From positions 64,001 to 128,000 of IMG/VR virus record IMGVR_UViG_3300033183_000491: a DNA stretch of 64,000 nt; one strand, given 5' to 3'. Position numbers and translations under genes: made by a program. This document shows, piece after piece, positions 8,288 through 15,163 of the stretch. How positions within the stretch are numbered: the first letter of the stretch is position 1; the number at the start of each line of letters is the position of its first letter. The notes under the pieces were generated by a model that searched no databases, was not told the origin of the DNA, and saw only the letters and a program-made list of their open reading frames with translations. Source of the stretch: a virus.

Positions 8288-9264
8288 TAAGTATTATTCC
8301 TTAAACATGACTTAAGTGATATTAAAAAAGAATGAATATCGTAAAAATTTAAACCTTCACGATTCATTATTTTCATAAGCTTGAATTTATTGATTTTCGC
8401 TTCTTTGTTTTCATATTGAAAGTTTATTTTTTTTATTTGATCTGCGCTTAACATTGCAGAGTCTAAATACATTAACTTCCAATTTTTAATTAAATGATTT
8501 TTATTTTGTATTATATTACTAAAGAGTTTCAATTTACACCCGTTATTAATTTTTTTATCTGACTCATTAATAATATCATTAATTGATGTTTCTCTTTTCT
8601 GAATTAAATCTGGGAATCTCTTTACTATTGTTTTAATCCCTGCACCTTTGATCCCTTTGATACCATCACTAACATCTCCTGAAAAGCATCTTGCAAGACA
8701 AAAATTGTATGCTGGAACTCCCCAGTTTTCTAATACATATTCTTCATCTATTAATTGCTTTTTATTTGGAGACCAGATTTTAGTATTCTCATCTAAAAGT
8801 TGATAATAATCCTTATCAGAAGTTACTATTATATTTTTTGTATCTTGTTTTTTTGTTTTAACTAGATAAGAAATAACATCATCTGCTTCACAGTCATTTA
8901 CATATATTTGTGTAACAGGTGTATCATATAATATTTCTACTAAAATCTTTAATTGATTATCTCTATTTTCAGTTGTATCTGGAATGTCTTTATAATATTC
9001 ACTTCTATTAAGTTTTACTGGTCTACGTCCTTCTTTGTAATTTGGGTCGATGTTTCTTCTTCTCAAAGATCCTCCACCTTCCCAAGCAACGACTATTTTT
9101 TGAGGTCTAAACTTAGAAGATAAATAATCTATATTTTTAAGAAAACCAATAATTCCTCCACAAAGATTTCCATTTAAAGACTTTGTGGGGTTAGCAGCAA
9201 AATGTCTCATGAAAACATTCAGACCATCAATATAAATAATAGGTTTATCATTATAGTAAATCAA
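8287..9264 (-). CDS. 5'-3' exonuclease / RNase H-like flap nuclease (PIN/FEN family)
   Basis: A 325-residue nuclease of the T4 RNase H / polymerase I 5'-nuclease family. Metal-binding acids sit in YIDGLN (Asp13), NDCEADDVISYLV and VTSDKDYYQLL, and a helix-hairpin-helix with GDVSDGIKGIKGAG follows. The arch region RRRNIDPNYKEGR binds single-stranded flaps. It removes RNA primers and flaps from Okazaki fragments. This matters because the small DNA polymerase at 14114-15163 has no nuclease domain. It is the first gene of the minus-strand run leading through the reductase genes, and diverges from the plus-strand gene at 9333 across a 68-base gap. Confidence 0.92.
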   Translation of the reverse strand: MIYYNDKPIIYIDGLNVFMRHFAANPTKSLNGNLCGGIIGFLKNIDYLSSKFRPQKIVVAWEGGGSLRRRNIDPNYKEGRRPVKLNRSEYYKDIPDTTENRDNQLKILVEILYDTPVTQIYVNDCEADDVISYLVKTKKQDTKNIIVTSDKDYYQLLDENTKIWSPNKKQLIDEEYVLENWGVPAYNFCLARCFSGDVSDGIKGIKGAGIKTIVKRFPDLIQKRETSINDIINESDKKINNGCKLKLFSNIIQNKNHLIKNWKLMYLDSAMLSADQIKKINFQYENKEAKINKFKLMKIMNREGLNFYDIHSFLISLKSCLRNNT

Positions 9265-12004: not shown

Positions 12005-12032
12005 TTAAAAAAATACCAGCATTAGCTGGTAT
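12005..12032 (-). terminator. intrinsic terminator after the SSB gene
   Basis: Read on the minus strand, ATACCAGC, a 4-base TAAT loop and GCTGGTAT form a perfect 8-bp stem followed at once by a run of seven T. It lies 30 bases after the SSB stop codon and separates it from recA. Confidence 0.85.
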
Positions 12033-12062: not shown

Positions 12063-12851
12063 TTATAGAGAATCTAGATCTGCAAAGGCATCATCTAAAC
12101 TCTTGTATTTACCGTTAATTGAATCTGGGGAATCATCATCTTGTTTTTGTGAATTATAATTTCCGCCTCTTGTTGTTTCTGAAGAGGATTCTTCATCATC
12201 GTCATTAAGCCAATTATTTACGATTTTTTCAAGATCTTCGTAAGATTTAAGTTCGAAAAGGTCATTAACATCTGGGATTGTATCCAACCATTGCTTTGAC
12301 TTTGATGAATCTTCAGACAAGGGTGAATCTTTTCCACGAGGTCTTACTTCAGTTGTTGCCCACATTTGACCGGGATTTTTTGTACAAATAATACGAACGT
12401 CTCTTCCTTCATGAGGATCAGTAATATCGCCATAATCTTCATCTAACATATAATTTAGAAGAGTTTGATAGACTGATTTTCCAAATGCCCAAAGTCTAAC
12501 ACCTTTTTCTTCTTCACCTCGGACAATAACTGGAGCATAACATCTCATTTTTGGATATAGCTTTTTAGCTAATTCATATGATTCTTTAGATCCTTCATCG
12601 CGAAGTTTTGTAATAAGCTCTTGAATAGGGTCTGGTTTGTCAAATTGATAAGGAGAAAGAAGTCCTGGATTGTTACCGATGTTGTAATAGAACATAAGCT
12701 CTTTAAATGGTTGACCGTCATTATTAGGATAAGCAAGGAGTCTTACTGTTGTTTCGGATCCTTCTTCTGGTCTCCACATAACATTCTTTTTAGAATTTTG
12801 TCCACTGAGTTGACCAAGTTTTTTACGGATTGCTGCTAGATCAATAGCCAT
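12063..12851 (-). CDS. gp32-like single-stranded DNA-binding protein
   Basis: 262 residues. The N-terminal basic arm (LAAIRKKLGQL) resembles the gp32 cooperativity region. The core has VMWRPEEG, KLYPKMRCYAPVIV and VRLWAFGKSVYQTLL, matching the gp32 OB-fold segment that reads LWKFGK in T4. The tail is Ser/Asp-rich and ends in an acidic, amphipathic segment (LDDAFADLDSL) like the gp32 C-terminus that docks replication partners. The Cys-His zinc site of T4 gp32 is not clearly conserved. It coats single-stranded DNA during replication and recombination. The leader holds tandem A/T-rich octamers that may mediate autogenous control, and a strong terminator follows the gene. Confidence 0.88.
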   Translation of the reverse strand: MAIDLAAIRKKLGQLSGQNSKKNVMWRPEEGSETTVRLLAYPNNDGQPFKELMFYYNIGNNPGLLSPYQFDKPDPIQELITKLRDEGSKESYELAKKLYPKMRCYAPVIVRGEEEKGVRLWAFGKSVYQTLLNYMLDEDYGDITDPHEGRDVRIICTKNPGQMWATTEVRPRGKDSPLSEDSSKSKQWLDTIPDVNDLFELKSYEDLEKIVNNWLNDDDEESSSETTRGGNYNSQKQDDDSPDSINGKYKSLDDAFADLDSL

Positions 12852-12866
12852 ATTGTGAAATTGCCT

Positions 12867-12914
12867 TTCATTGTTTATTTGTTTAATTTTTTAATTGGTT
12901 AATTGTTTAATTGT
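12867..12914 (-). repeat. six tandem 8-bp A/T-rich repeats in the SSB leader
   Basis: On the minus strand the leader reads ACAATTAA, ACAATTAA, CCAATTAA, AAAATTAA, ACAAATAA, ACAATGAA. These are six consecutive octamers ending 15 bases before the ATG of the gp32-like gene. The stretch is unable to fold and resembles the unstructured A/U repeat part of the T4 gene 32 translational operator. Confidence 0.75.
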
Positions 12915-12972
12915 TTTTGTCTACCAATTATGGAGACATTATATGTTATAAATTTTGTTTTTACACAAAAAT

Positions 12973-14113: not shown

Positions 14114-15163
14114 CTAATCACATGAATTATTAAATTGTGATATAGACACAGGAAAATTACCTAAGTCTTTATCATTATATCCTTTCTTAATTATTTCTGA
14201 AAATTCATTAATATAGTCTTTTTGTATATCAAAAACAATAGCATCATGAATTATAAAAATTGGAACTGCTCTTTTTAAATCTAATTGATTAACAAGTTCA
14301 GAAAAATAAGTTAATGAAATATCAACAGCAGACGATTGGACGAAATTATTAATTATTATATTTTCTTTCTTCTCTTCTAGATTCCAAATTGGTCTTCCAA
14401 AAAAATTTCTTCGTATTCCATGGTCATCTACTTTAGACGATATTTCTAGTAAATACTCCATATTAAAAAATTCTTTGATCGTTTCAAAAATCTTTAAGGA
14501 TTTAGATGCTGATATATTCTTTAAGTTTTCGTGACTTGCACCATACAAAACTGATATTATTGCTCTTTTTATAATTGACCTATCGATATTAAACTCTAAT
14601 AACTCATTGATTTTATTGTAAATGTCTCCATCAATATCATTTCCTACTATTTTTAGACAAAACCTAGGCTCTAAATTTACAAAATCTAAACTTAGCAAAG
14701 ATCCTTCTTTAAATCTACTCTCAAATATATTTCTGCATCTTTTAGGTAATGTTAAAATGTTTGGACCATTATTTACAATAAGCCTTCCTGAAATGTTTTG
14801 AGAGTTATCAAATTCACACCTGTCAGCATAACCTTGATTAGGTTTAAATGACTTTAAATTACTTAAAATACTTTTATTTATTTCTAAAGTTTGAATTGCT
14901 TTATATGCTAACGAATTAATTTTAGATCTTTCTATATTAGAAAAGAGACTATCATAGTTTTCTAGTCTTTTAACATATCCTAGTGAATCAATTAAATTTA
15001 TATTATCTAATATTTCTTTCTTGTGATTTGTAAATTCTTCTAATAGATAATCTGGTATTACTTCTTCTTCTTCGTAATTCTCGTTATTCTGTTCGAAGAA
15101 TTTAAACATTTTCTTAAAGTGATCATTATAATTTGTATTATATATTCTAAATAATTTTTTCAT
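14114..15163 (-). CDS. minimal family A DNA polymerase (palm and fingers only)
   Basis: 349 residues corresponding to the C-terminal polymerase domain of Pol I. Motif A is LLSLDFVNLEPRF with Asp160. Motif B is R195-S-I-I-K199 to Y207-G208. Motif C is IIHDAIVFD with His306-Asp307 (Ala in place of the usual Glu). The GRLIVNNGPNILTLPKR segment matches the pre-motif-A region. The 3'-5' exonuclease domain is absent and the thumb is very short (about 110 residues). Asp160 and Asp307, the two metal-binding acids, are present, so activity is possible. No Shine-Dalgarno sequence is visible; a small hairpin (GTTTAT/ATAAAC) stands directly before the ATG. It could be the phage replicase or an accessory polymerase. 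Confidence 0.82.
   Translation of the reverse strand: MKKLFRIYNTNYNDHFKKMFKFFEQNNENYEEEEVIPDYLLEEFTNHKKEILDNINLIDSLGYVKRLENYDSLFSNIERSKINSLAYKAIQTLEINKSILSNLKSFKPNQGYADRCEFDNSQNISGRLIVNNGPNILTLPKRCRNIFESRFKEGSLLSLDFVNLEPRFCLKIVGNDIDGDIYNKINELLEFNIDRSIIKRAIISVLYGASHENLKNISASKSLKIFETIKEFFNMEYLLEISSKVDDHGIRRNFFGRPIWNLEEKKENIIINNFVQSSAVDISLTYFSELVNQLDLKRAVPIFIIHDAIVFDIQKDYINEFSEIIKKGYNDKDLGNFPVSISQFNNSCD

Follow-up and report, generated by a model that had tools for sequence, protein, structure and literature searches.

How does a phage single-stranded DNA-binding protein (SSB) that is indifferent to sequence select its own mRNA? In T4, translation of the gp32 message is repressed by gp32 itself, which nucleates on a pseudoknot and then polymerises along the A/U-rich leader and its UUAAA repeats (PMC535899; PMC3014915). 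A UUAAA-type motif is required in T4, and how gp32 picks out its own mRNA is described as not clear (PMC535899). Within cooperative clusters, each T4 gp32 monomer has a footprint of 7 nt (PMC7826291; PMC10484735), and the study of gp32 in diverse phages has been called for (PMC3014915). The question is raised again by a gp32-like gene in a phage described as marine. Its leader lies in the 64,000-nt stretch of a 239,550-bp virus record that we analysed (the window), and a first-pass annotation had proposed a run of octamers in it as a translational operator. Judging from sequence comparisons and predicted structures, this leader is probably an autogenous translational operator for phage gp32, made up of a 5′ hairpin and, after it, binding units whose spacing fits the gp32 lattice.

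The first-pass annotation had called the gene gp32-like, and this was borne out. The window protein matched Pfam PF08804 (E = 2e-10) and PHROG 1192, the single-strand binding protein family. Its predicted structure, a model of modest confidence (pLDDT 61), aligned with RB69 gp32 (2a1k; Z = 12.9 over 187 residues) and T4 gp32 (1gpc; Z = 12.7 over 169 residues), and the next unrelated chain scored 5.4. On this predicted fold, we regard the gene as a true gp32. The zinc-binding motif of T4 gp32, Cys77-X3-His-X5-Cys-X2-Cys90 (PMC535899), was not found in the window protein, which has two cysteines only. As gp32 has its own promoter upstream and a terminator-like hairpin downstream, it seems to be a single-gene transcription unit.

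Features of the gp32 leader and gene in the window, and SSB leaders of the nickie-like phages
Feature	Position	Strand	Remark
-35 element GTGTAA, early-type promoter	12961..12966	minus	motif copies and same spacing in relatives
-10 element TATAAT	12938..12943	minus	
Stem S1, 5′ arm TGTCT	12934..12938	minus	upstream of predicted +1; optional extra stem
Predicted transcription start +1 (A)	12931	minus	7 nt past last base of -10 hexamer; from promoter spacing
Hairpin 5′ arm UAAUUGGU	12923..12930	minus	predicted mRNA nt 2-9; 8-bp stem, pairing probability 0.96
Stem S1, 3′ arm AGACA	12918..12922	minus	pairs with TGTCT; covaries in relatives
Six-octamer array, proposed gp32-binding array	12867..12914	minus	no gaps; period kept in relatives
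Octamer 1 ACAATTAA	12914-12907	minus	
Octamer 2 ACAATTAA	12906-12899	minus	
Octamer 3 CCAATTAA	12898-12891	minus	
Hairpin 3′ arm ACCAAUUA	12892..12899	minus	last base of octamer 2 and most of octamer 3
Octamer 4 AAAATTAA	12890-12883	minus	
Octamer 5 ACAAATAA	12882-12875	minus	
Octamer 6 ACAATGAA	12874-12867	minus	
Shine-Dalgarno AAAGG	12864..12868	minus	overlaps end of octamer 6; GAAAGG or similar at same place in relatives
gp32-like single-stranded DNA-binding protein, 262 aa	12063..12851	minus	PF08804, PHROG 1192, fold match
Intrinsic terminator-like hairpin after gp32	12013..12032	minus	
Nickie-like SSB leaders with TCGACA octamers	L498-L505; L521:19403-19432		

The array itself was found exactly as first described: six octamers without gaps, separated from the ATG (12851) by 15 nt (AGGCAATTTCACAAT). 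The span originally given, 12844-12920, covers the array and is slightly too wide; the octamers occupy 12914-12867. Tandem Repeats Finder reported a repeat at 12866-12916 with period 8, 6.4 copies and 83% match. Among all 63,952 48-nt windows of the 64-kb stretch, the array had the top lag-8 score (33/40 identities), which was reached by none of 2000 dinucleotide shuffles of this intergenic region. It occurs once in the whole virus record. The leader is A/U-rich and predicted to be largely unpaired, and its UUAA(A)-type repeats extend into the ribosome site. The annotation had held that the run forms no secondary structure. This stood for octamers 1-2 and 4-6, whose pairing probability in the predicted fold was 0.06-0.13 at 37 °C, but octamer 3 is an exception, as the fold pairs it with the 5′ end of the mRNA.

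We then surveyed 139 distinct gp32 leaders gathered from IMG/VR by computing the autocorrelation over 45 nt upstream of the Shine-Dalgarno sequence and testing it against dinucleotide shuffles. For 51 representative leaders, z was +14.8 at lag 7, +7.7 at lag 14, +4.9 at lag 21 and +3.0 at lag 28. Shared ancestry inflates these values: a control taken from coding sequence gave +11.8 at lag 15. The peaks were at 8, 16 and 23/24 in the protein cluster of the window and at 7, 14, 21 and 28 in cluster L327. Phase fitting gave best periods of 8 for the window clade, 7 for L062 and 7 for L327. The autocorrelation was flat in control leaders of 38 other genes from the same contigs. Clustering by gapped DNA identity lumped all A/T-rich leaders together, and we used instead the protein clusters and a safer set of leaders that were scarcely more similar to each other than shuffled ones. 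In this mutually dissimilar set, the best lag was 7 or 8 in 30 of 33 gp32 leaders, compared with 9 of 38 control leaders (Fisher test, P = 9e-9). A stricter dissimilar set gave 13 of 15 against the same 9 of 38 (P = 4e-5). The periodicity, whose conservation among relatives the first-pass annotation had named as a check, is retained in relatives with differing leader sequences and is absent from other leaders. It was strongest next to the Shine-Dalgarno sequence and had become faint by -60. Each of the window, L062 and L327 clades has a UUAAA-like unit, which is of the type AATTAAAM in the window. Strict conservation of the octamer sequence was ruled out; the relatives retain the pitch, not the letters. 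Two relatives, Mel-JY01 and immuto, showed no clear comb in the leader.

The 7-8 nt pitch is not universal among gp32 leaders. It was not found in the Straboviridae, where the pitch is 5 in T4, 4 in LQ5 and 5 in KVP40. As the T4 repeats have a pitch of 5, the pitch of 7-8 is a feature of the window lineage and was not inherited from the T4 model. The earlier proposal of a gp32 operator with repeats near the gp32 site size is partly supported. The gp32 leader of Vibrio phage KVP40 (L402) is a run of ATACN units. Among 62 cyanophage gp32 leaders, lag 9 alone stood out and no comb was found. In the cyanophage leaders (L418-L497), a GCTACGATTACACAGTAGC-type hairpin precedes AATAC units, whose 9-nt spacing is weak.

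A second occurrence of the pitch was found in a distant phage group. Like the window, the cultured Pseudomonas phage nickie and phages like it have 8-nt tandem units ahead of the Shine-Dalgarno sequence of a gp32-type SSB gene, in the order TCGACATA TCGACAAT TCGACAGA TCGACATA. Unlike in the window, the unit (TCGACANN) is not UUAAA-like. Nine nickie-like leaders, a small number with near duplicates among them, gave z = +9.0 at lag 8, +5.5 at lag 16 and +3.6 at lag 24. Of 21 leaders examined in the nickie genome, only that of the SSB gene stood out strongly at lag 8, with z = 5.0 against 1.7 for the runner-up. We found no description of this leader as an operator in the literature searched.

These observations bear on whether the pitch matters. 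The gp32 operator might be real and its pitch incidental, if gp32 has no more than a preference for A/U-rich leaders without structure, in which repeats born by slippage are tolerated. The leaders of T4 and RB69 work at a pitch of 4-5, and the window leader is indeed A/U-rich and mostly unpaired in prediction. However, slippage predicts a variable pitch and near-identical units, whereas a pitch of 7-8 was kept across dissimilar leaders and was missing from control leaders on the same contigs. The nickie-like leaders, moreover, hold a pitch of 8 with a unit that contains G and C. We therefore consider an incidental pitch unlikely.

The proposed operator would act on RNA, and where that RNA begins is suggested by the promoter. 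The pattern GTGTA-N18-TATAAT had 35 exact copies in the record, and a reversed control pattern had none. The copies lie mostly at 206-237 kb of the record, outside the window, and those that we read precede short open frames, which suggests that they are early promoters. The identical element with the same spacing precedes gp32 in 44 distinct leaders, including that of the window. From the spacing we infer that the mRNA starts at 12931. In the L327 clade, a conserved hairpin stem starts at the base equivalent to this predicted +1.

Folding the 44 leaders from this point predicted that their 5′ ends are paired. The probability of being unpaired was 0.24 over the first 9 nt, compared with 0.75 after shuffling, and it was lower in 43 of the 44. 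No such effect was seen in transcripts from 26 other early promoters of this phage (0.68 vs 0.71). All four clades have a 5′-terminal hairpin, and in two of them its arms covary. The L327 stem, GCAAT/ATTGC, begins at the predicted +1 in most members, and its covariants include GCAAAT/ATTTGC, GCGTTAC/GTAATGC and CAACGT/ACGTTG. In L253, the natural pair GATTGGC/GCCAATT stands in place of AATTGGT/ACCAATT. Arms matched their own leader better than the leaders of others, with z = 10.7 for all leaders together, 5.0 for the window clade and 6.8 for L327; the covariation was not significant in the L062 clade (z = -0.9, n = 8). Octamer 3 is the only one that begins with CC, because it supplies the 3′ arm of the hairpin. 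In the window clade and in L327 alike, a single repeat unit thus also serves as an arm of the hairpin. The putative operator reaches upstream to the predicted transcription start. The leader might instead be only an mRNA-stabilising 5′ hairpin with an A/U-rich translation enhancer (a ribosomal protein S1 site), free of gp32 control. The conservation of the hairpin would agree with this, as would the unusual stability of T4 gene 32 mRNA (PMC3014915). But it leaves unexplained why the SSB gene in particular has a 7-8 nt comb and why the comb recurs in nickie-like phages, and we think it very improbable.

In part of the window clade, an additional stem (S1) joins the bases just 5′ of the predicted +1 to those just past AATTGG. 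Its counterparts in other leaders include TGTAGA/TCTACA, TATCGA/TCGATA and ATGGC/GCCAT, and the pairing was specific (144 vs 105 ± 5.6 in permutations). The conserved hairpin and S1, which has its 5′ arm ahead of the predicted +1, would together form an H-type pseudoknot much like that of T4 if some RNA starts further upstream; otherwise S1 is a DNA dyad. An Rfam scan of the window gave no match. Least probable of all is that the repeats are a DNA element (replication-origin iterons or a transcription-factor array) lying in the leader by chance: the leader is A/T-rich and some members of the family have a dyad across the promoter start, but the array adjoins the Shine-Dalgarno sequence and fades by -60, its 7-8 bp pitch does not keep phase with the DNA helix, it precedes gp32-type genes in distant phages too, and the hairpin arms suit an RNA that begins at +1.

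For the autogenous operator, we propose the following course of events. The early-type phage promoter would produce a transcript from about 12931, so that the mRNA opens with the hairpin UAAUUGGU/ACCAAUUA, which may shield the 5′ end, act as the first landing site of gp32, or both. Units in the hairpin loop and 3′ of the hairpin repeat at 7-8 nt and reach into the Shine-Dalgarno sequence. When gp32 exceeds the available ssDNA, we infer that monomers bind cooperatively, one per unit, and repress translation. With a pitch as long as the footprint of one monomer, each gp32 in the filament would meet the same preferred UUAAA-type contact. Such register with the lattice would give the SSB message an edge over random RNA, and the filament would cover the ribosome site. 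Replication would then draw gp32 off to ssDNA and reopen the message. Several findings count against this reading. The pitches of 4-5 in T4, LQ5 and KVP40 indicate that gp32 autoregulation can do without a site-size pitch. The pitch of the window clade is 8, not exactly 7, and 7 nt is the value for T4 gp32. As the hairpin takes up octamer 3, not all six units would be free at once.

The gp32 operator as a kind is already known. In T4 and RB69, as in the window, a folded 5′ element of the gp32 gene leader is followed by unstructured A/U-rich UUAAA-type repeats that run into the ribosome site (PMC535899; PMC3014915). Their 5′ element is an H-type pseudoknot, compact and close to an end processed by RNase E, whereas that of the window is a hairpin from the predicted +1, with an arm that, unlike in T4/RB69, is itself a repeat unit. 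The T4 repeats have a pitch of 5, compared with 8 in the window and 7 in sister clades, which matches the T4 gp32 footprint. To our knowledge, there is no phased array in the operators of T4 gene 43 and RegA. These phage proteins, too, are translational repressors that act at the ribosome site (gp43 on its own message), through a single hairpin or a short unstructured site (PMC3014915). The site-size pitch, the 5′-terminal hairpin built from a repeat and the nickie-like parallel were not found in the literature searched, which covered few subscription journals.

It is possible, and we offer it tentatively, that phage SSB messages are generally recognised by lattice register: footprint-spaced units (7-8 nt), whose sequence is freely changeable, would mark the own mRNA for cooperative binding. 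This would have arisen more than once, with UUAAA-type units in the window family and TCGACA in nickie-like phages. A pitch equal to the footprint with a changing unit would be a simple, testable answer to how gp32 selects its own message, and dozens of natural leader variants are at hand for testing it. The repeat pitch could also serve as a sequence signature for spotting SSB autoregulation in uncultured phages.

Some further features of this phage were noticed. The promoter class of gp32, whose own copy is at 12938-12966 (minus strand), has a second copy in the window at 8510-8539 (minus strand) with a spacer one base longer. Many promoters of the GTGTA-N18-TATAAT class run on into AAACCATAAGGTCC; in some, the -10 element lies at the centre of a GGTTTAT-A-ATAAACC dyad. 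A 349-aa protein encoded at 14114-15163 (minus strand) matches family A DNA polymerase over its C-terminal part alone (PF00476 positions 107-357), and is possibly one piece of a split polymerase.
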